Origin: a virus
IMG/VR virus record: IMGVR_UViG_3300036823_000020
Span: 1-36,667 of that record
Strand: one strand, 5' to 3'
DNA length: 36,667 bases
This document shows, piece after piece, positions 16,816 through 36,667 of this stretch; position 1 is the stretch's first letter, and each line of letters begins with the position of its first letter. Made by a program: the position numbers and the translations under genes. A model generated the notes under the pieces. That model searched no databases and was not told the origin of the DNA. It saw only the letters and a program-made list of their open reading frames with translations.

Positions 16816-16830
16816 CCTTGGCGTGAGTTG

Positions 16831-16904
16831 AGGCGGGAGCTGGATTCGAACCAGCGCGCTACTGCTTATGAGGCAGTTGAGATAGACCGCTTCTCTATCC
16901 CGCC
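16831..16904 (-). tRNA. tRNA-Met (anticodon CAT)
   Basis: A complete cloverleaf reads on the minus strand: 7-bp acceptor GGCGGGA/TCCCGCC with no mismatch, D stem GAGA/TCTC, anticodon stem ACTGC/GCAGT with loop CTCATAA, 5-base variable loop and T arm GCTGG-TTCGAAT-CCAGC. The 1-72 pair is G-C, so this is elongator-like, not initiator. CAT could also belong to a lysidine-modified Ile tRNA. CCA is not encoded and the base after the acceptor is T, an unusual discriminator. It lies between a small gene and terL. Confidence 0.9.
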
Positions 16905-16925: not shown

Positions 16926-17186
16926 TCACTTACCGGCTGGACGTTTGCTCAAGCCGGCATCGACGATCAGCTTGGCGACGTCGTAGTAATGCAGGCAGTC
17001 GCACAGGCACGCGCCGACAACAGCGCCGCCGAGCGTAGGAGCAATGCTGCCGTTGCAGTGGTCGCTTCCGGGTATCGCGTCGTACAAAATGCCGATCGCG
17101 TTGATATTGACCGGCCCGGAACCGTATCCGGCGAGCGAGATGATCTTGTCGCCGTTCTTTGCTTCACGTCCGTTTCTGTAGTGCAC
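16926..17186 (-). CDS. Small phage protein between the two tRNAs (86 aa)
   Basis: The frame is open up to 17267, but that extension would translate the tRNA-Ala gene. The GTG at 17186, preceded by GGAG at a spacing of 8, is the sensible start. The protein begins VHYRNGREAKNGDKIISL, a pattern of many short phage proteins of unknown role, has a possible small beta-barrel core (INAIGILYDAIPG) and a cysteine cluster (GACLCDCLHYYD) that might bind metal. It lies between terS and terL. Confidence 0.65.
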   Translation of the reverse strand: MHYRNGREAKNGDKIISLAGYGSGPVNINAIGILYDAIPGSDHCNGSIAPTLGGAVVGACLCDCLHYYDVAKLIVDAGLSKRPAGK

Positions 17187-17206
17187 GCTATGCTCCAAAA
17201 TTAAAT

Positions 17207-17282
17207 TGGTGGACAAGACAGGAATCGAACCCGCGACCCGCTGCTTGCAAAGCAGCCGCTCTCCCAACTGAGCTACTCGCCC
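17207..17282 (-). tRNA. tRNA-Ala (anticodon TGC)
   Basis: A full cloverleaf with encoded CCA: acceptor GGGCGAG/CTTGTCC (two G-T pairs), D arm GCTC/GAGC, anticodon stem GCTGC/GCAGC with loop TTTGCAA (TGC), T arm GCGGG-TTCGATT-CCTGT, discriminator A then CCA. The 5' end at 17282 abuts the terS stop codon at 17283 with no gap, so cleavage by RNase P would cut the message right at the end of terS. Confidence 0.93.
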
Positions 17283-25244: not shown

Positions 25245-25802
25245 TCAAAGCAACAGCAGGCGCTTGGCCCGCTTGAATTCGATTTTCAGTTCTTCGATCT
25301 TGGCGAAGCACAAGTCGATGTTGTCGCCGGCGATGTCTTTAGCCGCCGTGTTGTCGGCCTTGTTGTGCTCGGCGTCGAAGTCAAACAAATCCTGCTCGAG
25401 TCGTTCGAGTGTGGTGTCGAAAGCCGCTGCGGCTTCGGCGAGATCGGTCGGGCGATCGTCGCTGTCGTTTTCCGGGTTCGGATAACAGGATTCGCAGTCG
25501 GAGTTACCGCAGAAAACCTGCGTGGTCTTCTGGTTTTGGTCGCTGCCGAGCGGCTGCGTTGGTCCGCCGACAAAATCAGCGACGAAACTTCCTTCGCCGA
25601 GCAGCGATTGCGTGCTGGCATAGGCGCCGGTGCCGTTGTCGAGATCTTTCGCGGCGTTTTCAAGCTCGCGTATGTAGTCACCGCTCAGCGCGCCGCCGAG
25701 CGACGGGGACAAGACGTTGCCATTGCGGGACGTCACTTCGAATCCGAAGTCCGGGACGACGCAGAAGCCATCAACGGCCACCACAAAGACAGACTGAAGC
25801 AT
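25245..25802 (-). CDS. First late-operon gene, unknown function (185 aa)
   Basis: First gene after the late promoter and leader, with a strong GGGGA ribosome site. The protein is acidic. A small motif CGNSDCESCYP (near 98-108) carries four Cys/Asp positions that may bind metal, followed by an acidic patch (NPENDSDDRPTD) and a C-terminal helical region (AEAAAAFDTTLERLEQDLFDFDAEHNKAD, then LCFAKIEELKIEFKRAKRLLLL). No family is recognised. A first-in-operon position is often held by regulators of late transcription, but nothing here proves that. Confidence 0.5.
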   Translation of the reverse strand: MLQSVFVVAVDGFCVVPDFGFEVTSRNGNVLSPSLGGALSGDYIRELENAAKDLDNGTGAYASTQSLLGEGSFVADFVGGPTQPLGSDQNQKTTQVFCGNSDCESCYPNPENDSDDRPTDLAEAAAAFDTTLERLEQDLFDFDAEHNKADNTAAKDIAGDNIDLCFAKIEELKIEFKRAKRLLLL

Positions 25803-25990: not shown

Positions 25991-26019
25991 ATTATGGCAC
26001 GTCGGTAATCATTACTCAA
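25991..26019 (-). promoter_or_regulatory. Late promoter, extended -10
   Basis: On the minus strand: -35 TTGAGT (26014-26019), 17-bp spacer, TGC extension, -10 CATAAT (25991-25996). This fits sigma-70 well and predicts a start near 25984, giving a leader of about 180 bases before the 185-aa gene. Confidence 0.62.
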
Positions 26020-26330
26020 TATCGGAAATGCAATCGCGCGCGGCGCGCGCGGCGGATCGTCTAAAAGCGCCTGCTTTTAAAAGCGCCGGAATCGCCCACC
26101 CCTCGAATTCAGGCGGTCAGCAACGCACGTTTCAGCACATATGCGCGCTAATCAATTGAATTAAAACTAAATACTTCGCCCTACTGAGGCGTTGGCGTAG
26201 CTGGAGACGCTGCGGCGGCTGATGCCATTGCTCGACTGCGCCAACGTCTGCCGATCTGCGCTCAGCATCACGCATGTATAGGAATTTCCTAGGAATTCCC
26301 ATGCAACACACACACGGCGCGAGATTAACA

Positions 26331-26355: not shown

Positions 26356-26370
26356 TACCGATAAACGGTA
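26356..26370. promoter_or_regulatory. Operator-like dyad 1 (TACCG-ATAAA-CGGTA)
   Basis: Perfect 5+5 dyad with a 5-bp AT-rich centre. It overlaps the first bases of a possible -10 (TATACA, 26369-26374) of the rightward early operon. Confidence 0.6.
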
Positions 26371-26376
26371 TACAAA

Positions 26377-26391
26377 CGCCGACGAACGGTA
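26377..26391. promoter_or_regulatory. Operator-like dyad 2 (CGCCG-ACGAA-CGGTA)
   Basis: Keeps CCG-N5-CGG with one arm weaker. Its centre is 21 bp from dyad 1, two helical turns, which allows two repressor dimers to sit on the same face. It overlaps a TTGACG (26393-26398) closely. Confidence 0.5.
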
Positions 26392-26433
26392 GTTGACGAA
26401 TCTGGAAATGGGTTTACCTTCGTCGGCGATAGT

Positions 26434-26448
26434 TACCGTTATTCGGTA
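26434..26448. promoter_or_regulatory. Operator-like dyad 3 (TACCG-TTATT-CGGTA)
   Basis: Perfect 5+5 dyad 40 bp before the ATG of the first early gene, in its likely untranslated leader. Confidence 0.58.
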
Positions 26449-26488
26449 GCGCTCACACCAACACCAACAACAAGAAGGACACCAACAA

Positions 26489-26920
26489 ATGAAAACGAAC
26501 GAGATCACCAACACCGAAGACACCATCGATAGCCGCGACGTGATCGCGCGCATTGAAGAACTGCGCTCGGACCTCGACAGCTTGAACGATGACATCGCCG
26601 ACGCTGAAGGCGCGGACGCGACAGAGGCGGCTCAGGAAGTGCTGAAAGAATGGGAAGAAGAATACGTCGAAGAACTGCGCGCGCTCGAAGCGCTCGCCAG
26701 CGAAGCCGAAGGATATGCGGCGGATTGGAGCTACGGCGAGACGCTGATTCGTGACAGCTACTTCAAGGAATACGCACAAGACCTCGCCGACGATATCGGC
26801 GCCGTCGACCGCGACGCGAAATGGCCAAACACCTGTATCGATTGGGACCAAGCAGCGCGTGAGCTTCTTCAGGATTACACGTCCGTCGATTTCGACGGCG
26901 TCACGTATTGGGTGCGCTGA
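26489..26920 (+). CDS. Strongly acidic early protein, ArdA-like C-terminal pattern (143 aa)
   Basis: First gene of the rightward early operon. About 40 Asp/Glu against 12 Lys/Arg gives a very negative charge. A long charged helix (16-75) is followed by a domain (WSYGETLIRDSYFKEYAQDLADDIGAV, then IDWDQAARELLQDYTSVDFDGVTYW) that recalls the C-terminal part of ArdA-type antirestriction proteins and is common in small phage proteins. A DNA-mimic role against restriction would fit charge and early expression, but is inference. Its stop overlaps the next start as TGATG. Confidence 0.62.
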   Translation: MKTNEITNTEDTIDSRDVIARIEELRSDLDSLNDDIADAEGADATEAAQEVLKEWEEEYVEELRALEALASEAEGYAADWSYGETLIRDSYFKEYAQDLADDIGAVDRDAKWPNTCIDWDQAARELLQDYTSVDFDGVTYWVR

Positions 26921-27147
26921 TGAACCTCGCTGCTGCTTACGAACTCCGCCAGATCGACGCCGCGCATGAATCGATGGAACTCGCTCGCGAGAAGCTTTCG
27001 ATGCTCAGCAACGACCAGCACACCAGCCTCGCGCAGACGCAGCGTATTGACCGCGTCGCACGCAAGCTAACGAAGGCAATCACCGACCTGAAGACCGCGC
27101 AGCGCTCAGCGCGTGCGCGCTTCACCGCTCAGGAGGCTGCAGCATGA
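26920..27147 (+). CDS. Small helical early protein (75 aa)
   Basis: The ATG at 26920 overlaps the previous stop. The protein is nearly all helix (LRQIDAAHESMELAREKLSML, then IDRVARKLTKAITDLKTAQRSARARF) with a basic second half. No family is recognised. Its stop overlaps the next start (ATGA), showing tight coupling. Confidence 0.55.
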   Translation: MNLAAAYELRQIDAAHESMELAREKLSMLSNDQHTSLAQTQRIDRVARKLTKAITDLKTAQRSARARFTAQEAAA

Positions 27148-27236
27148 AATTTTCACCAGTGGAAAAACTGATCGGATTCGCCGCGCTTCTAATCATGGCC
27201 TGGTCGATAGGTTCGGTCGTTGGAGCGTGCCCATGA
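27144..27236 (+). CDS. Mini membrane protein (30 aa)
   Basis: ATG at 27144 (ATGA overlap) to TGA at 27236, which in turn overlaps the next ATG. The 30-residue product has a charged start (MKFSPVEK) and one membrane helix (LIGFAALLIMAWSIGSVVG). Double coupling in a row of overlapping genes supports its reality; function unknown. Confidence 0.5.
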   Translation: MKFSPVEKLIGFAALLIMAWSIGSVVGACP

Positions 27237-27433
27237 AAACCAACGACACCATTAACGACATCGCTCGTCGCGCTTGGCAAAACCTCATAGCCGAAGCATG
27301 CAGCGATGTCGGCAAAGCTCAGGCTCGCGCGTTGCGCTACGACCTCAACCGTCACGACTGCGAAGCGCTCGCGGTTGCCTTCCGTGCCGCATTGTTTGAT
27401 CAGGCATTCCCGGAAAGGAGTAAGGCAGCATGA
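27233..27433 (+). CDS. Small early protein (66 aa)
   Basis: The ATG at 27233 follows the ATGA overlap; the frame is open further upstream but those codons lie in two other genes. Helical throughout (INDIARRAWQNLIAEACSDV, DCEALAVAFRAALFDQAF). Starts MKTND, like the first gene of the operon (MKTNE). Not recognised. Its end overlaps the next start as ATGA. Confidence 0.52.
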   Translation: MKTNDTINDIARRAWQNLIAEACSDVGKAQARALRYDLNRHDCEALAVAFRAALFDQAFPERSKAA

Positions 27434-27606
27434 AAACCTATTTTTGCAACAGCTACACGAACGGAGATGGCCATCACGTTTGGAGCGTGAAGCATTCGCG
27501 CTTCGGAGACTCACCGACGGGAATTGTCGTTTGCGACGTGACGAACAGGCAGGACGCCGAAGAATTGGTAGAGCTTCTAAACAGCTACGAAAGCAAAGCA
27601 GCTTAA
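27430..27606 (+). CDS. Small early protein (58 aa)
   Basis: ATG at 27430 by ATGA overlap to TAA at 27606. The product MKTYFCNSYTNGDGHHVWSV... has two beta strands, then GIVVCDVTNRQDAEELVELLNSYES, an alpha/beta mini domain. Ribosome site AAGGAG lies in front of it (27415-27424). Unknown function. Confidence 0.55.
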   Translation: MKTYFCNSYTNGDGHHVWSVKHSRFGDSPTGIVVCDVTNRQDAEELVELLNSYESKAA

Positions 27607-27687
27607 CGCCAGCCGTTGCCGTTTCCAACGAGACGGCAGCCACGGGCGACAAGACCCGAACACCAACGCACCAACAGAGGCAAGACA

Positions 27688-27879
27688 ATGACTTTGCAGA
27701 CCGTACGCCACGAGCGCAACGAACGCCCGCAGTTCATCATCCGCAACGCCGACGGCTCCGAATGGATTCGCGTTCTCTACCGCGACATGGCCGAAGGCAT
27801 TGTCAAGCGCAACAAGTCCGACGGATGGCTTGTAAATCAAAACCTGTTGCCGCAAACCATCGAGCAGGTGCAGCCATGA
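27688..27879 (+). CDS. Small early protein (63 aa)
   Basis: Starts at the ATG 27688 with AGAGG upstream; the open frame before it has no ribosome site. The sequence (RPQFIIRNADGSEWIRVLYRDMAEGIVKRNKSDGW) suggests a small alpha/beta domain with an aromatic strand. The 81-bp gap before it holds no other feature. Its stop overlaps the next start as ATGA. Confidence 0.52.
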   Translation: MTLQTVRHERNERPQFIIRNADGSEWIRVLYRDMAEGIVKRNKSDGWLVNQNLLPQTIEQVQP

Positions 27880-28172
27880 CCGCCGCTCGCTACTGGACTG
27901 TAGTTCAAGGCACCAGCACGGCACGCGTCCGCGCGGATGATCACGCCGGAGCTGTTGCGCGCGCCGCTCAACTCGGATTCAAGACACCCGACAGCATCGT
28001 ACTCGCCTACGACCTCACACTTCCCGCGCAAGTGACTGATGAGTCTGTAGCCGAATGGCGCGACAAGGTGAACCGCGCGAACCTGTCGCACTCATCGCCT
28101 TGGCAATTTCTGTCACAAGCTGAGCAAATATTCTGGCGTCAGCAGTGCATGAAGCGCGTCGCGAAGACGTAA
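27876..28172 (+). CDS. Small early protein (98 aa)
   Basis: ATG at 27876 overlaps the previous stop. The N-terminal half (ARYWTVVQGTSTARVRADDHAGAVARAAQLGFKTPDSIVLAYDL) looks like a small alpha/beta fold; the C-terminal half (SVAEWRDKVNRANLSHSSPWQFLSQAEQIFWRQQCMKRV) is helical. It is the last gene of the operon, 28 bases before the terminator. Not recognised. Confidence 0.52.
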   Translation: MTAARYWTVVQGTSTARVRADDHAGAVARAAQLGFKTPDSIVLAYDLTLPAQVTDESVAEWRDKVNRANLSHSSPWQFLSQAEQIFWRQQCMKRVAKT

Positions 28173-28199
28173 CCGCCGACCGAACCACAGCGGCACTTT

Positions 28200-28226
28200 A
28201 GCCGGCCTCGCGCCGGCTTTCTTTTG
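28200..28226 (+). terminator. Intrinsic terminator of the rightward early operon
   Basis: AGCCGGC, a 5-base loop and GCCGGCT, followed by TTCTTTTG. It stops the plus-strand operon before it meets the convergent minus-strand genes; the minus strand has no T-run after the stem. Confidence 0.85.
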
Positions 28227-28257
28227 TGAAATGCTCGATCACCTGTCGTCGCGACCA

Positions 28258-28386
28258 CTACCTGTAGCCAGAAGTCCCCGATCCCAGCCACGAAGGCTCG
28301 AAGACGGCAAACAGAATCACGCCAGCGATGCACGCCATGAACAACAGCCCGCCAATGTTTTCCGGATCACGCAGCCATGCTTTCAT
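28258..28386 (-). CDS. Mini membrane protein at the end of the replication operon (42 aa)
   Basis: The ATG at 28386 has GGAG 7 bases upstream and overlaps the end of rusA by 20 bases. The protein MKAWLRDPENIGG is followed by a membrane helix (LLFMACIAGVILFAVFEPSW) and a short tail. It lies at the convergent junction with the plus-strand early operon. Function unknown. Confidence 0.5.
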   Translation of the reverse strand: MKAWLRDPENIGGLLFMACIAGVILFAVFEPSWLGSGTSGYR

Positions 28387-28828
28387 CGTCATTCTCCGCT
28401 GGACGTGAAAATCCTACCACCTTCCGCACCGCCGGCAAAATCAATCCCTGCCATCCCTCGCCAAGCTCACCGATCGACACGATGACTCGTGCCCGCTTCG
28501 ACTTCATGCCGCGCTCGACCGTCAACAGGTCTATCTGACCGTCGTTTGCATATACGCCAGGCCATCCCAATTTCTCGTCGGCTTCCATTGCGTCCTGCAA
28601 TCCCTTCAGGACGTTGTCAAGGTCCGCGCGTCGCGCGTCGGCACGCTCAACCAAAACGTGCATCCATAATCGCATGTCAGCCGCGTACGGCATCACCTGC
28701 TGCTCGATCACGGCTAGCCTGACCGCTTCCTTGTACGCGCGGCCATCAGCGCTGATCATCACCATACGACCTACGTGCCGGTAGTATCGATTCAGACTCG
28801 GCGGCAGGTCTAGCGTCAGGCTTTGCAC
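28367..28828 (-). CDS. rusA: RusA-family Holliday junction resolvase
   Basis: The 153-aa protein begins with a strand and PPSLNRYYR, the usual RusA opening. The catalytic block ADLDNVLKGLQDAME lies at 68-82, with D69 and D71 as metal ligands and the third acid expected in VYANDGQID (D96 or D100). K-rich segments KSKRARVIVSI follow. RusA cuts four-way junctions as a homodimer and resolves branched DNA before packaging. It has an extra C-terminal ~30 residues. The start overlaps the upstream gene. Confidence 0.87.
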   Translation of the reverse strand: MQSLTLDLPPSLNRYYRHVGRMVMISADGRAYKEAVRLAVIEQQVMPYAADMRLWMHVLVERADARRADLDNVLKGLQDAMEADEKLGWPGVYANDGQIDLLTVERGMKSKRARVIVSIGELGEGWQGLILPAVRKVVGFSRPAENDDESMAA

Positions 28829-29067
28829 GGGAATATCTCAGCCAGCGCGCTAGCGATGACGTCGTCCTTGTCTTGCATATCGTACAAATCGTCGCAGTTG
28901 TCCCACATATCAGACATCTCGTCGATCCACATCAGCGACGCCGGCCTCACCGCGACATCAGGCTTCGCGCGCTCGCGCGATTCGGCCAGCAGCTTGTGCG
29001 CGACCGACTTCCCGCGCCGCTGTTGTGTCATTCGGTAGGCAAGGTTTTGCAATCCACTACGCCGCAT
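28816..29067 (-). CDS. Small phage protein (83 aa)
   Basis: The ATG at 29067 has GGAG 7 bases upstream and overlaps the preceding gene's end. The N-terminal half is basic (MRRSGLQNLAYRMTQQRRGKSVAHKLLAESRERAK), the C-terminal half acidic with many Asp/Met/Trp (MWIDEMSDMWDNCDDLYDMQDKDDV). Unknown; could be a nucleic-acid-binding accessory to RusA, which it precedes. Confidence 0.5.
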   Translation of the reverse strand: MRRSGLQNLAYRMTQQRRGKSVAHKLLAESRERAKPDVAVRPASLMWIDEMSDMWDNCDDLYDMQDKDDVIASALAEIFPCKA

Positions 29068-29224
29068 CTTCCGTCTCCGTGAACCTGCATTCAGTTTCGA
29101 TCTCACCATCCCACAGCAAGTCATCGTTCTCCGCCTCGATCTCCGTCAGCGCAGGATCCAGCCTGCCGACAGCCACGCCGCTGGTCATGCCGTAGTGAAA
29201 GTTCACCTCGACAGCGGTGATCAT
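29057..29224 (-). CDS. Small acidic phage protein (55 aa)
   Basis: The ATG at 29224 overlaps the upstream stop as ATGA; the longer open frame to 29332 is inside that gene. The protein (MITAVEVNFHYGMTSGVAVG, then an acidic tail with many Glu and Asp) is not recognised. Spacing and overlaps on both sides support it. Confidence 0.48.
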   Translation of the reverse strand: MITAVEVNFHYGMTSGVAVGRLDPALTEIEAENDDLLWDGEIETECRFTETEDAA

Positions 29225-29478
29225 GTCTCGACCCTGATGTCGAACTCTCCACGCAGCATCGAAACGCACACCTCGTCGTCGCGGCAAAGACCAGTAACCC
29301 GCTTCGACATGAGCTCGACACCATCCTTCCAAAAGCTCACCTTCACATCCGGGCCGAGATTCTTGACCTTGATCGAATCGAAGGCGACCGAAACCAGATT
29401 CTTCCTGCCTGCACTCATGTCCAAACCGACCACTGCCTGAGCGACAGCGTTATTTGTTAAATCCATCCTGCCGTGCAT
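29221..29478 (-). CDS. Small phage protein, beta-rich (85 aa)
   Basis: AAGGAG precedes two ATGs (29484, 29478); the second has better spacing. Segments NLVSVAFDSIKVKNLGPDVKVSFWKDGVELMSKRVTG and EVCVSMLRGEFDIRVE suggest a small beta domain. First gene after the AT-rich iteron-like region, so probably driven by the promoter there. Not recognised. Confidence 0.5.
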   Translation of the reverse strand: MHGRMDLTNNAVAQAVVGLDMSAGRKNLVSVAFDSIKVKNLGPDVKVSFWKDGVELMSKRVTGLCRDDEVCVSMLRGEFDIRVET

Positions 29479-29493
29479 TTGCATTCTCCTTCA

Positions 29494-29654
29494 TTAGTCA
29501 GTAGTCATTCTTTAGTCATGCCCAAAGACTTACCATAAGATTATGTTTTTATTATTATTTAATATATATATTAGTCAATAGATAGTAGTAGTAAGAGAAG
29601 ATATAAAAGCAGTATTCGTACAGAGAGAGGGGACCACCATGACTATTTGACTAA
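29494..29654. repeat. Iteron-like TAGTCA repeats in an AT-rich segment
   Basis: TAGTCA occurs four times forward (29495, 29502, 29513, 29572) and twice inverted as TGACTA (29640, 29648); four of the six have an extra T giving TTAGTCA. Between them lies the most AT-rich stretch of the window (29540-29572). This arrangement is that of replication origins or of a multi-site operator. No gene lies in 29485-29698. Confidence 0.6.
29550..29578 (-). promoter_or_regulatory. Possible promoter for the 29478-28258 genes
   Basis: On the minus strand TTGACT (29573-29578) is followed after 16-17 bases by AATAAT/ATAATA. The AT-rich run makes the exact -10 ambiguous. One TAGTCA repeat overlaps the -35, so a repeat-binding protein could regulate it. 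Confidence 0.4.
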
Positions 29655-29698
29655 GATTCCCCTCCAGCCCTACTGCCACAACGCCTGCACGTTGGTCA

Positions 29699-32146
29699 CT
29701 AGTCGTCACCGTCAGTCGCCGATTCAACGGCTACCCACACCGTCGCCTTCTTCCCGCTAGCGCGCGTGACTTCGCGCAACTCGATCCTTCCCATCTTCAC
29801 CAGACGGTCGAGAACCTGCTTTGCCATCGGCTCCGTTAGCCGCCGCAGCGCCCGGCAGTCGCTCACCAGCCTGCTGGGAACCACTCCGCGCTCGCCCTGC
29901 TTGAGAACGTACTGATGAACCCTCTGCACGCTCTCATCGAACTCCGATTCGAACACGCGGTTCTCGACGCCAGCCACCACGATGCGGCCACACCACCGCA
30001 CGTAGCCGACAGCCCAGCGCGCGCATTCCTCGTCAATGACCGGCCGCACTGGGTGCTTCGCCACTGCTGCGATCAACGCCAGCTTGTGGGCGTTCTCGTA
30101 CCATCTGACGAGGGCATCATCCAGGCCACGGCCCTGCGCGTGCATCTTGTCCCGCTGCTCGTCGACTTCGACCTGGAAGCTCTCCAGCACCTGCTGCGAC
30201 AGCGTGTCCTCGTATTCGACCTGAACCGGGTTGCTCGGCGTCGCACCGAGACTCTGCGCGCCGTCCACCGCATACCCAGGATTGCGCACGCTGTCAGACC
30301 ACAGCTTCAGCCCGTTAGGCATGTCAGCCAGCGACGCGCGGTTCACGTTCGCCTTCGGCTTCGCGTCAGGGGCTTGAGCCACCATCAGCCGATTGATGAA
30401 GCCGCTCGCGACGTCGGCACCCTTCACGTTCGACCAGAACTTGTCGGGCGTCGTGAAGCCGATCACCGTCAGGTGCGGATAGGCCAGCGCCTCGCTGCGC
30501 TTCTCCTTGCGATTCGCGTAGTCCGTTCCCTTGTACAGCGGGTTGCTGCTCGCCGAATACAGACTCATCATTTGATCCGTGATCTCGCGGATATGCGCCT
30601 GAGCATTCACGCCCAGCGCCGCGCGCAAGAGGCCATCAACCTCGTCGAGCACATAGATCGCCGCCGACCCCGTCGCGCCGTCGCTCAGCATCGAGACAAT
30701 CGCCTGGCCGCTCGCAATCTTCGACCCTCCGAGCACGCGCTCCTGTCCGCAGTGAGCCAGCAAGCGCATCAAACACTCCTGCGGATGCGCCTTGCCAAAC
30801 CCTGAGCGAGCAATGCCTATCAGGTTCAGGTTCGAGCGCGAGCCCGTCGGCCCAACGTAAATCTGCCGCGCCATCATCGAGCAGAACGCGATCGTCGCGT
30901 GCAAGCTCATCTCCGGCAGCGGCTGCTGCGCCGTCGCCAGCATCCAGCGGAATATGTCGGCCATGATTCCCGGCGGCTTCAACAGTTCGTTCGGAATGCC
31001 TTCGTCGACGATCACCGATTCCTTCGCGATGGGCCGCAACACCGTCACGCCGTCGTCGACCACCACTTTCACCGGCACGCTGGTGCCCGCCATCGACGCC
31101 GCGTCCCGCGCGCGCTTCTCCGCTGCCAGCTCCGCCTTGACTTCGTCGATCGTCTTCGCAAAGTCGCCGCCGACTTCAACCTTCTCCGGCACGACGATGA
31201 TCCCCAACTTCTCGCCGAGATACTCCATTGCCGTGTGCACGCCGCAGCCACGAATTGCCATTACCAGATCGATCGGCGTGTAGCCGCGATTCTCCGCGAA
31301 GTCGCGAATGCCATGTCGCGTGATGCCGACCTTGTCTGAATCCGTCACGCCGCGCCAGAACGGAACCACGCGGTGCGTGTCGCCCCACTTCACATACTTG
31401 CGATAGTTCTCCGGCACGATGTCGTACAGCCACGCCGCGACGTCAGCCAGCGCCGCATCGTTCAATCGCCTGCCGAGTTCGTCGCTCTCGTTAACAACAT
31501 GCGCTGACCGCTGCAGGTCGTCGGCTTGCTTGCGCTTGTCGTCGGCACTCTGAAATGGCTCGATCGCGCGCTGACACCGCTCGACGATGTCGGCCGGACA
31601 CGGCGGCAGCTCGTCCAGGTTGTACGCCTTGAATGGTGTCTGCCACTCGTACGCCTGGTGCGTGTCGGGATGAATCGTCGGCGGCATCACCACCTGCCGA
31701 CCTGTGTGCAACAGATCCAGCACGCGCATTCCGTCCACATTCCATTTCGACTGCTTCAGTCCGAAACCTTCCGGCGCCAGCACGAACGCGCAGTAGCCGC
31801 GCTTGCCCCTGCGACGCGCAATCAGACAGCCACCAAGTTCGCGCTCGAGCGCGTCGACAATGTCCTTCCTATCCGTGTCAATGTCGATGCCAAGCAATCC
31901 GCTGTTGCCGCCCATCGGCACACAGATGCCGGCATCCGGCCAGTCGTCAGCCCAGATGTCGAGCTGCACGTCGTTCGGCATCTTGTGCGCGTATTCCTGC
32001 CAGTCGCGCATGTTGTTCCAGCCGTGCTGCCCGTCGTAGGTGCCAGGCACCTTCGTCCCTGGCCCGACCGGCAAACAAGGAATCCCGGCTTCGACGTACC
32101 GCGAGTACTCCGCGCCGAATGGACTCGTCGCTACAGCTTGTGTCAT
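29699..32146 (-). CDS. Primase-polymerase fused to a DUF3987-like ATPase/helicase
   Basis: From the ATG at 32146 (GGGGAG ribosome site) the protein is 815 aa. Residues ~10-190 match the bifunctional primase/polymerase N-terminal fold: an opening helix with GIPCLPV, the metal-binding IDIDTD (D88, D90) and GRQVVMPPTIHP at 149-160. Residues ~390-640 resemble the DUF3987-type P-loop region: IGIARSGFGKAHPQE (P-loop-like SGFGKA, 448-453, Ala where Ser/Thr is usual) and IYVLDEVDG (497-505, Walker B). The C-terminus has a likely winged helix (PSRLVSDCRALRRLTEPMAKQVLDRLVKMGRIEL). It should prime and perhaps unwind phage DNA. Confidence 0.83.
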   Translation of the reverse strand: MTQAVATSPFGAEYSRYVEAGIPCLPVGPGTKVPGTYDGQHGWNNMRDWQEYAHKMPNDVQLDIWADDWPDAGICVPMGGNSGLLGIDIDTDRKDIVDALERELGGCLIARRRGKRGYCAFVLAPEGFGLKQSKWNVDGMRVLDLLHTGRQVVMPPTIHPDTHQAYEWQTPFKAYNLDELPPCPADIVERCQRAIEPFQSADDKRKQADDLQRSAHVVNESDELGRRLNDAALADVAAWLYDIVPENYRKYVKWGDTHRVVPFWRGVTDSDKVGITRHGIRDFAENRGYTPIDLVMAIRGCGVHTAMEYLGEKLGIIVVPEKVEVGGDFAKTIDEVKAELAAEKRARDAASMAGTSVPVKVVVDDGVTVLRPIAKESVIVDEGIPNELLKPPGIMADIFRWMLATAQQPLPEMSLHATIAFCSMMARQIYVGPTGSRSNLNLIGIARSGFGKAHPQECLMRLLAHCGQERVLGGSKIASGQAIVSMLSDGATGSAAIYVLDEVDGLLRAALGVNAQAHIREITDQMMSLYSASSNPLYKGTDYANRKEKRSEALAYPHLTVIGFTTPDKFWSNVKGADVASGFINRLMVAQAPDAKPKANVNRASLADMPNGLKLWSDSVRNPGYAVDGAQSLGATPSNPVQVEYEDTLSQQVLESFQVEVDEQRDKMHAQGRGLDDALVRWYENAHKLALIAAVAKHPVRPVIDEECARWAVGYVRWCGRIVVAGVENRVFESEFDESVQRVHQYVLKQGERGVVPSRLVSDCRALRRLTEPMAKQVLDRLVKMGRIELREVTRASGKKATVWVAVESATDGDD

Positions 32147-32173
32147 AATTCTCCCCGTTGGTGTCAATCTTCA

Positions 32174-32197
32174 GCCCGCGATCTACGCGGGCTTTTT
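32174..32197 (+). terminator. Plus-strand intrinsic terminator inside the minus operon
   Basis: GCCCGCG, a 5-base loop and CGCGGGC, then TTTTT on the plus strand. On the minus strand there is no T-run after the stem. The loop contains the stop codon (TAG) of the DUF551 gene. Confidence 0.75.
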
Positions 32198-32896
32198 ATT
32201 GGTCGGCGTCACCCCGTCGTGTCCCTGCTGCGGCTCATTCTTTAATGTTGGTTGGAAGCAGTCGCCATTCGGCCAGTGGTCCGGGAAGTCGCGACCGCAA
32301 GTGTCGCAAACGCCGAACTCTCGCTGCTGCGGTTTGCCGACTTGCGGCTGAATCATTGGCCCTGTACAGACCGGGCAGCCCGTTTCCCCGCAACACTCAT
32401 CCGATGGAATGGGCTTGAGCGGCTCATCGCGTGCGGAGGGTGGGGTTGGCAGTGGCATCCAGTGTGTTGGGTTAGTGTCCCAGCAATTAGGCTCGTCAGG
32501 CTCAACTGCGGTTTCGTACCAGCCGGCTTCGCAACAGTCACCATTTTCCCAATCAGTATCAATCATTTCTTTGGTGAACCACTGACCGCGGAGTGTTCGC
32601 CAATTACCCAGTACGTTGTAATAGCCAAGCAGAATTGTCCGGCCCGTTTTCGGCGCTGACTCAATCGATTGCCATTCCCCCACCGGCTGCGCGGCGCGTT
32701 CGAGGGCTGAGGCGGCGGCGAGCATTAACTCTTCGTCCGCCATAGAAAAAGTAGAAACTGATTCGCGCCTTCTCTGATATTCGACGCGTTCTGTTAATTC
32801 CTTCACCAGCACAGTGTTGTCGCTCATGGCTTGGCCTCGGTTGCATAGACACCATTTCTCAGGATTCATACATTGCGAACAGACTGGGCCGTCCAT
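32183..32896 (-). CDS. DUF551-containing phage protein
   Basis: The ATG at 32896 overlaps the upstream stop as TAATG, giving 237 aa; an internal ATG 24 codons on (MSDNTV) is an alternative. The first 20 residues have Cys pairs (CSQC, CLC). After a helix (about 28-70) comes the DUF551 pattern GEWQSIESAPKTGRTILLGYY ... GQWF ... THWMPLPTPP (about 73-150). The tail has three Cys-rich parts: DECCGETGCPVCTG, CDTCG and a C near NGDCF, so it may carry zinc sites. Small DUF551 proteins are common in phages; function unknown. Confidence 0.68.
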   Translation of the reverse strand: MDGPVCSQCMNPEKWCLCNRGQAMSDNTVLVKELTERVEYQRRRESVSTFSMADEELMLAAASALERAAQPVGEWQSIESAPKTGRTILLGYYNVLGNWRTLRGQWFTKEMIDTDWENGDCCEAGWYETAVEPDEPNCWDTNPTHWMPLPTPPSARDEPLKPIPSDECCGETGCPVCTGPMIQPQVGKPQQREFGVCDTCGRDFPDHWPNGDCFQPTLKNEPQQGHDGVTPTNKKPA

Positions 32897-33957
32897 TAGC
32901 CACGCTCGGCGTTGGCGGCTATCGCGGCGTCCCAATCTTTGTTGCGCCTGTCGAGTTCGTTCGCGATTGCATGCAAGTGATTTGAGTTCAAAAATCCTTG
33001 CTTGCCGTGCATGTCGAATACGAAATAGCCGTCCACCTCTTGATAAATTTCCTTTGCCAACTGCTCGGGCATGGCCGCATCCCTTGCATCCGCGTGAGTG
33101 GGTGAGGTGTAGAGAGGCGTGTTAGCAAATAGGTATTCCAGCAACTGCAATGCTTCGCCGTGCGTGAGCATGCTCGTTCCGAAGCGCGGGTGCGCGTAGT
33201 CCTGCATCGACATGCACGCATCGCTACACACCGATTTCGGAACTGGCCAGCGCATGATGAGATCGGCCATTCGTTCCAATCGCTCTGCCGCATCACCGGC
33301 AAGTGATGCCGCGTCAGCCTCTCTGGTTGCCCATTCGCTTTCGCGTCGCGCTTCAGCCGACCTGCTATTCGTTGGTTCGCCGTGATGCCAAAGAAATGCA
33401 CAGTACGCAGCGACATCGCGCGGATCGCCCTTAAATAAGTGATCCAGCAGCCTTTGGCGGCATTCATCCATCCAGTCGGATTGCGCCCATCCATCGCTAT
33501 AACCGTACTTCTTTTCAGCAGCAGCCAGCTTCTCCAGCAACGCACGGCTGAAACGCTCGACTAACTCACGCGTGCGTGGATGTATCGCAACAGCCTGCGC
33601 CTCGGTCGGGGTGGCTGTCGGTGCGTGCGTGGGCGCTAACGGGACGAAACGGCATTCGGCAGATTTATCGTGTAGACGTTCATTGAAAACATCACGCGCA
33701 TATTCCTCCGTAAGAAAAACATTAGTTGGCAAACCATTGCGCATGATGGCCCAAGCCACCGCCTCACCTTCCGCGTTGCCGGGAGACGTGAGCAAGGAAG
33801 CTGCGAATCTCATCATGTCAGCCCACTTACAAACGAGGTAACGTTCGATGCGTGGATCATCTTCCGGGATGTGGTTTAAGAGCGCATCACGCGCGATATT
33901 GAAATCGTGTTGATCGTAAATGTTTTGCGCTTTCGCGCCGGGCGATTCGACGGTCAT
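32896..33957 (-). CDS. Mosaic phage protein, Eaa/Ea-like modules (353 aa)
   Basis: It appears to be built of three common phage segments. The first (about 65-110, GEAVAWAIMRNGLPTNVFLTEEYARDVF) is found in Ea22-like proteins. The second (about 150-205, YGYSDGWAQSDWMDECRQRLLDHLFKGDPRDVAAYCAFLWHHG) recurs in enterobacterial and Burkholderia phages. The third (about 230-275, ERMADLIMRWPVPKSVCSDACM) also recurs in phage early regions. The parts seem to shuffle in different phages. No catalytic motif is visible. Its ends overlap neighbours by ATGA and TAATG. Confidence 0.55.
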   Translation of the reverse strand: MTVESPGAKAQNIYDQHDFNIARDALLNHIPEDDPRIERYLVCKWADMMRFAASLLTSPGNAEGEAVAWAIMRNGLPTNVFLTEEYARDVFNERLHDKSAECRFVPLAPTHAPTATPTEAQAVAIHPRTRELVERFSRALLEKLAAAEKKYGYSDGWAQSDWMDECRQRLLDHLFKGDPRDVAAYCAFLWHHGEPTNSRSAEARRESEWATREADAASLAGDAAERLERMADLIMRWPVPKSVCSDACMSMQDYAHPRFGTSMLTHGEALQLLEYLFANTPLYTSPTHADARDAAMPEQLAKEIYQEVDGYFVFDMHGKQGFLNSNHLHAIANELDRRNKDWDAAIAANAERG

Positions 33958-34166
33958 GGCTTATCCTCTGATACTGCATTGGCGTGGCGACGTTCAGAAG
34001 CAACTTGGTCGTCTGGAACTTCTTCGATCTCTGCGCCGTTTATTACACAGTCGCCAACCGTTACCTGAGCTATGGCATATTCGTATGCCTTTTCTTCAGA
34101 CTCCGCGCCAATGACTAGCACGTCGCAGATTACTTCCATCTTCACCAAGTAATTTTTCTTGCTCAT
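33954..34166 (-). CDS. Small phage protein (70 aa)
   Basis: The ATG at 34166 overlaps the previous stop as ATGA and has a strong ribosome site (GGGAGG). The protein (NYLVKMEVICDVLVIGAESEEKAYEYAIAQVTVGDCVING) looks like a small alpha/beta domain with an acidic tail. The frame is open upstream, but that part is antiphase to the zinc-ribbon gene. Unknown function. Confidence 0.55.
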   Translation of the reverse strand: MSKKNYLVKMEVICDVLVIGAESEEKAYEYAIAQVTVGDCVINGAEIEEVPDDQVASERRHANAVSEDKP

Positions 34167-34357
34167 ACATCCTCCCTTCGCCGATCCTGTTTCTCGCACA
34201 CAAAGAATCCATCGTCGCCAAAGCACGGCGGCATAAAACAACCACCAGTGCGTTCTCCGCAATTCGGACACGGTGACGACTTAGAGCGAATAACGTCCCT
34301 CAACTTGCTAAGGTAGTTAGCGCTACGCGCCGCCTTCTCCAGACGATGACTCGCCAT
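34163..34357 (-). CDS. Small zinc-ribbon-like protein (64 aa)
   Basis: The ATG at 34357 lies inside the end of the HTH gene, with GGAG upstream. The protein has CPNCGERTGGC, then PPCFGDDGFFVC, four or five Cys able to hold one zinc. The N-terminus is basic and helical (SHRLEKAARSANYLSKLRDVIRSK). Possibly a nucleic-acid-binding early protein. It ends with an ATGA overlap. Confidence 0.55.
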   Translation of the reverse strand: MASHRLEKAARSANYLSKLRDVIRSKSSPCPNCGERTGGCFMPPCFGDDGFFVCEKQDRRREDV

Positions 34358-34805
34358 TGCAATGCTCCTTAATCCACTTGTATACAGTTACAGTCGATAG
34401 CCCGGCTTCGTCAGCAACCTTCGTGATCTTGCGGCCAGGAACGGAAAGCAGAGTGCGTAGCTGTTGATCGCGAAGCATCCCTGGCGGCAGTCGACGCTTC
34501 GCGCGCTCAGTGTCAGCGATCTTCTTTTTGATCCTGGTGTACTTATCCGTGACGCCGAAGATGCGCGCGCCGGTGTCGAACAAAGAACCCTGCGGACGCT
34601 GCTGTCGGTAGGCGCCCCACTGCCGCTTCTGCGCGACACAGTTATTGCGCCGGCATTCGCGCGCGAATATCTGCGCGACCCTGCCTTTAGAAATTCCGAA
34701 CTCTGCCGCTATAGATTCATACGTCCGGCCGTCACGCAGCACGGCGACAACAAGGCGCGCGTCCCGCTCCATCCCATCGAATCGTTTCTGTAAAAGAGAA
34801 TTCAT
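34323..34805 (-). CDS. Protein with two helix-turn-helix segments (160 aa)
   Basis: The ATG at 34805 is favoured; the upstream extension to 34880 would cover the divergent control region. An N-terminal HTH is visible at about 25-50 (RTYESIAAEFGISKGRVAQIFARE), and a second at about 130-152 (KITKVADEAGLSTVTVYKWIKE). The middle is basic (ECRRNNCVAQKRQWGAYRQQR). It is the first gene of the leftward replication operon and faces the XRE repressor, the position of a Cro-like or replication-initiator/early regulator. No clear ribosome site is seen. Which of these roles applies is open. Confidence 0.6.
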   Translation of the reverse strand: MNSLLQKRFDGMERDARLVVAVLRDGRTYESIAAEFGISKGRVAQIFARECRRNNCVAQKRQWGAYRQQRPQGSLFDTGARIFGVTDKYTRIKKKIADTERAKRRLPPGMLRDQQLRTLLSVPGRKITKVADEAGLSTVTVYKWIKEHCNGESSSGEGGA

Positions 34806-34834
34806 TTGACGTACACGGTAACGAATGTTAAGTT
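34806..34834 (+). promoter_or_regulatory. Possible rightward promoter of the repressor
   Basis: TTGACG (34806-34811), 17-bp spacer, then TG-T-TAAGTT (-10 34829-34834, extended but weak). It would drive the 55-codon frame and the repressor. A leftward promoter TTGTTA-N18-TAACAT (34854 to 34825, minus) overlaps it. Confidence 0.35.
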
Positions 34835-34874
34835 GCGCGACCTTCCGGTAACAAAAAGCGAAGGGATGGCTAAC

Positions 34875-35042
34875 ATGCATGACGTTGCGCGAGAGGAAAG
34901 TTTACCGAAATTCGGAAACGGGGGCAACCATCACATGAATTCCGGCATTACCGAAAAACAGGAACTTGCTGACAAATCGGATTCGATAGGCGACGATACG
35001 CGTGCCAAGGGGAACTTGACGCGATGCCTAAAGAAGACTTGA
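34875..35042 (+). CDS. Possible small gene before the repressor (55 aa)
   Basis: The ATG at 34875 has AAGGGA 8 bases upstream; the frame ends within the repressor gene. The product (MHDVAREESLPKFGNGG...) is polar with no motif. It contains dyad A (34903-34917), so the segment may be a control leader with only chance coding ability. Confidence 0.3.
   Translation: MHDVAREESLPKFGNGGNHHMNSGITEKQELADKSDSIGDDTRAKGNLTRCLKKT
34903..34917. promoter_or_regulatory. Operator-like dyad A (TACCG-AAATT-CGGAA)
   Basis: CCG-N5-CGG with AT-rich centre, as in the sites at 26356-26448. It lies between the divergent HTH and XRE genes. A half-site (ATTACCG) follows at 34948. Confidence 0.52.
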
Positions 35043-35422
35043 GCAAACTTAACGAGAAGCAACTGAGACAGCTATCGGGTAGCAGGATGCGGCTTGCCCG
35101 CCAGCGGAAGAATATGTTCATGCGCGAGGTTCGTGAACAGATGGCGCGCCGCGGCATCGTCTGGGCTTTCGAGTCCAGGGTCGCCGGCTACGAGAACGGC
35201 GACAACGCAATGACGGCTTACACAGCGCGGATGTTGGGCGAGATACTCGACGTCTCACCAGCGTGGTTGCTATGCGTTGAAGACGCCCTGCCGTTCGATG
35301 CCGACACCATCGATACCGTGCGTCGATTCAACGAGGCACCACCTGACGTAAGAGAGATGATTTCAAAGATGCTGTCGATGCGATCGGCGTCTCTCACTCC
35401 AAGTCCAAAGGGCCGGCAATAG
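35024..35422 (+). CDS. XRE-family (CI/Cro-type) transcriptional regulator
   Basis: The 132-aa protein has an HTH of the XRE type at about 20-80: GSRMRLARQRKNMFMREVREQM, then VWAFESRVAGYENGDNAMTAYTARMLGEILDVSPAWLL, with the usual ESR-x-x-x-YENG recognition stretch. After it there is only a ~45-residue tail (FNEAPPDVREMISKML), with no S24 self-cleaving domain. Thus it would not be inactivated by RecA in the lambda way. AAGGGGAA precedes the ATG. It is the best candidate binder of the TACCG-N5-CGGTA sites. Confidence 0.8.
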   Translation: MPKEDLSKLNEKQLRQLSGSRMRLARQRKNMFMREVREQMARRGIVWAFESRVAGYENGDNAMTAYTARMLGEILDVSPAWLLCVEDALPFDADTIDTVRRFNEAPPDVREMISKMLSMRSASLTPSPKGRQ

Positions 35423-35436
35423 CCGGCTCTTTTTTT
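35412..35436 (+). terminator. Intrinsic terminator of the repressor gene
   Basis: GCCGGC, a 4-base loop, GCCGGC, then TCTTTTTTT. The stem includes the repressor stop codon, so termination overlaps the end of the gene. Confidence 0.88.
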
Positions 35437-35446
35437 GTCTATCGAT

Positions 35447-35461
35447 TACCGAAAAAAGGTT
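35447..35461. promoter_or_regulatory. Operator-like dyad B (TACCG-AAAAA-AGGTT)
   Basis: Left arm perfect, right arm one mismatch. Its centre lies 20 bp from dyad C and it overlaps the -35 of the promoter. Confidence 0.42.
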
Positions 35462-35487
35462 GACACTTCCGAATATCGGTATAGAAT
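35460..35487 (+). promoter_or_regulatory. Strong promoter with operator in its spacer
   Basis: TTGACA (consensus -35, 35460-35465), 16-bp spacer, TAGAAT (5 of 6, 35482-35487). The spacer holds dyad C, TTCCG-AATAT-CGGTA (35467-35481), so binding there would block RNA polymerase. It drives the gene at 35538. Confidence 0.75.
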
Positions 35488-35537: not shown

Positions 35538-35990
35538 ATGGCTGACGCCGCAGACAAGCCACTGTCAGAGCTGACAGTTGCAGAACTCGCAAAGTTGTGG
35601 CTGCGCGAAAAGGCCGTTGAAAACGACGCCATCGAACGCCGTCGTCAAATAGGCAACGCACTGCTTGCAAAGATCGAAGCGCCGGCTTCAGGCGAAGGCA
35701 CCACGCACCCAGAGATTCCAGGGTTCAAGACGACCGTCACGTACGGACTGAAGCGTGAGATCGACGACGCCATCAGCGTAGACGACCTTCGCCAGAAGTT
35801 GCCCGAACAAGTCTTCGACGATCTCGTCCGCTTTAAAGCCGAAGTCAACGTTACCGCGCTGAAAGAAATTCGCGACCGCTTCCCAGAAGCGTGGGACGTC
35901 ATCGTCGCCAACATCACCACAAAGCCCAGTTCCCCGCAGATCAAGCTCGAACCGATCGACGGCGGACTGCGCGAAGAAATCTCAGAGTAA
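35538..35990 (+). CDS. Early phage protein of unknown function (150 aa)
   Basis: The ATG at 35538 has GGGGA at 5 bases; the open frame before it has no ribosome site. An N-terminal helix (LSELTVAELAKLWLREKAVENDAIERRRQIGNALLAKI, about 9-46) is followed by a beta part (HPEIPGFKTTVTYGLKREID), a helix (VDDLRQKLPEQVFDDLVRFKAEVN) and a polar tail. The shape recalls a set of short phage proteins (possibly those labelled DUF7173). It is transcribed by the operator-controlled promoter. Confidence 0.58.
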   Translation: MADAADKPLSELTVAELAKLWLREKAVENDAIERRRQIGNALLAKIEAPASGEGTTHPEIPGFKTTVTYGLKREIDDAISVDDLRQKLPEQVFDDLVRFKAEVNVTALKEIRDRFPEAWDVIVANITTKPSSPQIKLEPIDGGLREEISE

Positions 35991-36015: not shown

Positions 36016-36667
36016 ATGAAGAAGCCGCAACCGAAAAATAAAAACACGAAGGCCACCGTCAAGAAGCGCGTAAAGAAAGTCTCTACTTCGCTCGTCTTGC
36101 GTTGCTGTGACGCCAACATGCGCAGCTACGACGGCTTTCAGTGGCCGGATAAGGTCGGCGCCACTGTCAAAGCTAAAGACTGGAGCAGCGCCCCGTATTT
36201 CGGCAACGGACTTCATGGATGGCTGCATGGAGCCGGTGATCATTCGTCGAGCAGCTACGTCGATCGCGACAACGCGAAGTGGCTTGTTGTCGAAGTTGCT
36301 TCCGCGGGTATCGTGATGCTCGGCGGCAAATGCAAGTTTGAGTCGTGCGTCATTCGCCACATCGGCGACAAGAAATCAGCGACCGACTTCCTGCTCACCC
36401 ATGACCAACTCGCCAGAGAAGTCGCGGTGATAGGCGCCACTCGTGCCGTTGCCGATCTTGAATCGGCGCTCGTCGGCGCCCGCGGCACTGCAACGGCTGG
36501 CTACGGCGGCACTGCAACGGCTGGCGCCCGCGGCACTGCAACGGCTGGCTACGGCGGCACTGCAACGGCTGGCGACAGCGGCACTGCAACGGCTGGCGAC
36601 AGCGGCACTGCAACGGCTGGCGCCAGCGGCACTGCAACGGCTGGCTCCGGCGGCACTGCAACGGCTG
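36016..36667 (+). CDS. DUF7666-like protein with GTATAG repeats (cut by window edge)
   Basis: ATG at 36016 opens a frame running off the right edge after 217 codons. After a Lys-rich start (about 1-25) comes a domain (LVLRCCDANMRSYDGFQWP, WLVVEVASAGIVMLGGKCKFESCVIRHIGD) of the type found in phage proteins annotated DUF7666, about 25-150. From residue 157 the chain is a run of 8-residue units, GTATAG plus two variable residues (YG, AR, DS, AS, SG), like pentapeptide/hexapeptide-type beta solenoids. Promoter is probably shared with the 35538 gene, 26 bp upstream. Confidence 0.65.
   Translation, partial: MKKPQPKNKNTKATVKKRVKKVSTSLVLRCCDANMRSYDGFQWPDKVGATVKAKDWSSAPYFGNGLHGWLHGAGDHSSSSYVDRDNAKWLVVEVASAGIVMLGGKCKFESCVIRHIGDKKSATDFLLTHDQLAREVAVIGATRAVADLESALVGARGTATAGYGGTATAGARGTATAGYGGTATAGDSGTATAGDSGTATAGASGTATAGSGGTATA
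36484..36667 (+). repeat. 24-bp tandem repeat, at least 7.7 copies
   Basis: The 18-bp core GGCACTGCAACGGCTGGC repeats every 24 bp from 36484 (36508, 36532, 36556, 36580, 36604, 36628, 36652). The core is invariant in all seven full copies; only the 6-bp spacer changes. The array continues past the window end. Confidence 0.95.

Follow-up and report, generated by a model that had tools for sequence, protein, structure and literature searches.

A dispersed TACCG-N5-CGGTA dyad at the early control regions of an uncultured phage, the candidate operator of a small XRE-type repressor

Phages with dispersed operators, in which one repressor is served by several separate sites, include P1 with its C1 repressor and the cluster A mycobacteriophages with their stoperators. 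In phage lambda, the CI/Cro switch is organised around OL and OR, with 17-bp operators on either side of the repressor gene, one set in the divergent gap and the other past the distal end of the gene. The C.Csp231I protein is a small XRE-type controller without a cleavage domain, which binds as a dimer to CTAAG-N5-CTTAG, a dyad with an A-rich centre (PMC4321490). Here, we describe a 15-bp dyad, TACCG-N5-CGGTA, in a linear viral record of 36,667 bases (G000), which was analysed as a whole and is referred to as the window. No near match to the window was found in the phage collection. The phage would make a credible new case of the familiar virus switch between staying dormant and multiplying, because matching 15-base dyads lie beside its early genes together with a small regulator gene, as in known switches.

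The late genes of the window run leftward from position 25,802 downward and encode the terminase, portal/adaptor, major head protein and amidase. A rightward operon on the plus strand (26489-28172) begins with a gene (26489-26920) related to ArdA-like/antirestriction proteins. The leftward replication operon (34805-28258, minus strand) includes RusA and primase, and its first gene (34323-34805, minus strand) encodes a double-HTH protein of 160 amino acids, assuming a start at the likely ATG at 34805. In the opposite orientation, the divergent gene at 35024-35422 (plus strand) encodes the small XRE-type protein, which is the proposed binder of the dyad. The DUF7173 gene (35538-35990, plus strand; E 1.7e-11) follows downstream of an operator-promoter region at 35447-35487, and a repeat-rich gene runs off the right end of the window. 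The record, possibly an incomplete one, yielded no integrase.

The layout resembled that of lambda, since sites 34903/34949 (in the OR position) and 35447/35467 (in the OL position) flank the XRE gene, with the HTH gene as its divergent partner. Paired sites lie about 20 bp apart at one control region, and the operators overlap promoters, clearly at 35447/35467 and more weakly at 34903, with no good promoter recognised at 26356. Unlike in lambda, the dyad is 15 bp long, the XRE protein carries no S24/LexA-like domain, a third operator region is located 8.5 kb away, and the partner is a double-HTH protein instead of Cro. The locus shares with C.Csp231I a small XRE protein without a cleavage domain, whose DNA binding is putative here, and a 5-N5-5 dyad with an A-rich centre. 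It differs in the half-site (TACCG versus CTAAG), the kinship in sequence is weak, and C.Csp231I controls restriction-modification, whereas the window belongs to a phage; among the window proteins covered by general scans, none was recognised as a restriction-modification protein. As in P1 and the cluster A phages, the sites are found at several separate places, but they are far fewer and all lie within control regions.

The DNA side of this arrangement, that is, the sites themselves, is well supported. When all 1,024 five-base words were combined with gaps of 0-12, TACCG-N5-CGGTA was the most over-represented palindromic word and gap in the noncoding DNA of the window among the 13,312 combinations tested, with a probability of 1.0e-6 uncorrected and about 0.014 after correction for all tests. 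With one mismatch or fewer, four copies were present in the window, all of them (4/4) in noncoding DNA and none in genes, so the motif is not as frequent inside genes as in the control regions. The noncoding share of the window was 7.8% according to the gene map made in this analysis, and the shuffle expectation at this stringency was 0.09 copies in noncoding DNA and 0.59 in the whole window. With up to two mismatches, the pattern was no commoner than chance (13 copies versus 10.4 expected in the whole window), and the copies at 26377 and 35447 therefore required separate evidence. The first-pass annotation had given the core as CCG-N5-CGG with an AT-rich centre. The centre did matter, the discriminating feature being five bases that are all A/T; the bare core did not discriminate, as the majority of its 28 copies in the window were located inside genes.

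A 17-base profile was built solely from sites in other viral contigs. Since these had themselves been retrieved with ACCG-W5-CGGT-like pattern searches, the profile is independent of the window positions but not of the general form of the motif. Its seven best matches in the window were, in order, 26434 (score 22.2), 26356 (21.6), 34903 (20.2), 35467 (18.0), 35447 (16.5), 34949 (12.5) and 26013 (10.3), and all fell in control regions. A gap separated them from the eighth match, which scored 6.5 bits and lay inside a gene. The fifth-best score of 16.5 compared with values of at most 8.9 in 200 shuffles, and the profile scan of 102 kb around generic XRE genes returned zero sites of at least 14 bits. 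The first-pass annotation had listed six copies, and the sequence was indeed present at each position, albeit in uneven quality: the profile led us to drop 26377, uphold 35447, add 34949 and, weakly, add 26013.

The strongest site in the window, the exact dyad TACCGTTATTCGGTA (26434-26448), is located approximately 40 bp upstream of the ATG at 26489. The other exact dyad, TACCGATAAACGGTA (26356-26370), lies 5' of the same rightward early operon, and its CGGTA end continues into TATACA. In the divergent region, a leftward promoter-like sequence, TTGCCC-17-TAAACT (34927-34899), was read by eye before the HTH gene; it matches at 8/12, under the cut-off of the promoter scan, and its 17-bp spacer is occupied by the operator TACCGAAATTCGGAA (34903-34917, one mismatch). 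The weaker operator TACCGAAAAACAGGA (34949-34963), absent from the earlier list, shares this region and is a direct repeat of 34902-34919. The best sigma-70 promoter match in the window, TTGACA-16-TAGAAT (35460-35487, plus strand; 11/12), does hold a copy of the dyad in its spacer, as had been claimed: TTCCGAATATCGGTA (35467-35481, one mismatch) fills the spacer, and TACCGAAAAAAGGTT (35447-35461, two mismatches) overlaps the -35 element. The spacing of 20 bp between 35447 and 35467 bears out one of two proposed pairs set two helical turns apart. Doubt falls on the other pair (26356/26377, 21 bp), one member of which, 26377, belongs to a 14-bp stem.

The copy CGCCGACGAACGGTA at 26377-26391 (two mismatches) was rejected as an operator, as it scored 0.6 in the profile (rank 33) and its left half forms the 5' arm of a stem-loop with 26415-26428. 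In this stem, CGCCGACGAA-c-GGTA pairs with TACC-TTCGTCGGCG (-23.4 kcal/mol, z -3.7, RNA fold). The stem-loop (26377-26428) separates operators 26356 and 26434 upstream of the rightward operon; it could represent a second dyad or a leader structure. The candidate weak operator at 26013-26027, which reads TTCCGATATTGAGTA on the minus strand and was also absent from the first list, overlaps the -35 element of a promoter (26019-25991) that points leftward towards the late genes; these may belong to the same regulon as the early regions. The stretch 25991-26027 contains this promoter, TTGAGT-17-CATAAT with TG before the -10, and two degenerate half-operators 20 bp apart.

Five further uncultured viral contigs, representing three groups (the closely similar G003-G005 were treated as one), carry the dyad solely at two control regions each. 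In G001, G003, G004 and G005, ACCG-W5-CGGT occurs three or four times per contig and at two places only, one separating a CI-type repressor gene from a small HTH gene that diverges from it, the other immediately past the repressor, before the next operon. The dyad and its placement around the repressor are thus the same as in the window, whereas these repressors possess an S24/LexA-like C-terminal half that is missing from the XRE protein; a direct BLAST comparison of the latter with the repressors of G001 and G004 detected no significant similarity. The divergent partner gene varies among these contigs, and an integrase is present in G001 and G004. In G002, two copies lie 16 kb apart, each within a promoter spacer, and one of them (TTGACACTACCGAATATCGGTATATA) almost matches TTGACACTTCCGAATATCGGTATAGA of the window; neither an HTH_3 match nor the regulator was identified in this contig. 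What is unusual here is that a single dyad recurs, across several phage groups, beside repressors that are built differently. We consider it rather improbable that the small XRE protein and the S24-type CI proteins, being unrelated, settled on the same ACCG-W5-CGGT operator. If they did, phages without sequence kinship might cross-repress (heterotypic immunity), and immunity between unrelated phages could be predicted from DNA wherever differently built repressors read one operator. Within the literature covered, searching for the exact dyads brought up neither a phage paper nor a description of the operator sequence.

A scan of genome contigs for tandem dyads yielded repeats, scattered single cases and a Clostridiales metabolic regulon, with no prophage recognised. 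Two contigs of one Clostridiales genome carry tandem ACCG-W5-CGGT copies, spaced by 21 bp, upstream of metabolic operons (L011, 2059-2091; L015, 5451-5483), which constitutes a bacterial regulon with a similar dyad. Dyad matches in L003, L004 and L005 were discarded, as they were located inside genes.

The XRE protein is small (132 amino acids), and scans of Pfam, PHROGs and NCBIfam detected no S24/LexA-like cleavage/oligomerisation domain, in line with its initial description. Its match to the Pfam family HTH_3 was weak (13.2 bits, cut-off 23, E 0.097), and it matched phrog_7396 at 6e-6. The best matches among sequences of solved structures were lambda CI DNA-binding domains, which were not significant (E 0.1-0.25); in the comparison with the C.Csp231I class, the value for 4o8b was E 0.73. 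The protein also aligned with L035, which is closely related to C.Csp231I, at a BLAST pair E-value of 1e-7, which flatters the match because L035 was picked out of 398 genomes (per-genome E 0.005). Alignments with C.Csp231I-type proteins disagreed on the length of the HTH and on the placing of extra residues around it. These resemblances are taken as leads to the binder and not as proof. A single-sequence AlphaFold2 model reached a pLDDT of 50 and was not used for a fold search. Searches of 398 Pseudomonadota genomes with the XRE protein, and with phrog_7396 in 398 genomes, returned generic XRE matches alone, without the dyad nearby. No homologues of the XRE and HTH proteins turned up in the viral contigs, and no close XRE homologue was found that would have allowed co-variation between the protein and its candidate sites to be traced.

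These data accord with the proposal that the sites, though far apart, form one phage repressor regulon: the enrichment among 13,312 dyads, the profile from outside the window and the dyads at both ends of the CI genes in G001 and G003-G005 all agree with it. The sites are very probably operators of a phage regulon. We regard the complete reading, in which an XRE-run repressor regulon blocks the early promoters, as reasonably probable, and the XRE protein is slightly favoured as the main binder. An XRE dimer would bind TACCG-W5-CGGTA (W = A or T) with one recognition helix per TACCG half, and the A/T-only centre would be read through its shape. Bound between the -35 and -10 elements, it would exclude RNA polymerase and silence the 35460 promoter, which is predicted to drive the 35538 genes, as well as the leftward promoter of the HTH gene and replication operon. 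The rightward operon starting with the antirestriction-like gene would likewise be silenced, and the XRE gene itself would possibly be tuned from the 34903/34949 divergent region. The divergent HTH protein, in the Cro position, may compete for the sites. The result is an operator code, open to testing, for a phage that is uncultured and for which no close sequenced relative was found; the same dyad is tied to the repressor loci of other, unrelated viral contigs.

The same regulon might instead be bound mainly by the double-HTH protein (34323-34805), in a Cro-like or early-to-late switch, with the XRE protein acting elsewhere. This gene is divergent from the XRE gene and its product has two HTH segments; moreover, operator 34903 lies in its own promoter region, which makes autoregulation natural. 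However, the HTH segments matched sigma region 4 and transposase-type domains, not phage repressors, and the dyads of G001 and G003-G005 lie on both sides of a CI/XRE-type gene whose divergent partner varies from contig to contig, so we judge this assignment unlikely, if still worth weighing. It is less probable still that the sites serve a host regulator, or a phage regulator encoded outside the record, whose operator was adopted by the phage promoters. G002, with two promoter-embedded copies and no HTH_3 match, and the Clostridiales genome, with tandem dyads before unrelated metabolic genes, would be explained in this manner, but the sites of the window surround its own XRE/HTH pair, and those of four comparator contigs surround the phage's own repressor gene.

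Two further explanations were considered. The dyads could be RNA hairpins, such as leader structures or weak terminators, given that the dyad can pair as RNA and that 26377-26428 and 26434-26448 fold as consecutive hairpins. This is very improbable, as the arm sequence is kept, beyond pairing, across distant positions and unrelated phages, and the sites at 35447/35467 lie inside a promoter, upstream of the start site, and would not be transcribed from it. Chance resemblance, to which the shuffle-level frequency of the two-mismatch motif might point, seems the least plausible of all, since the one-mismatch motif is enriched and wholly noncoding, and the outside profile recovers the same places. 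The XRE-run repressor regulon is retained as the preferred reading.

Several other features of the window were recorded. Genes for tRNA-Met and tRNA-Ala were located at 16830-16904 and 17207-17282, both on the minus strand, and the ORF at 16926-17267, which overlaps one of them, is probably not a gene. At 36475-36667, a 24/48-bp tandem repeat encodes GTATAG-type repeats in the right-end gene, and the end of the contig inside this gene is perhaps an assembly break. A 214-bp AT-rich gap beside the primase gene (29485-29698, 37% GC) contains divergent promoter-like sites and inverted repeats, and is a possible replication origin.
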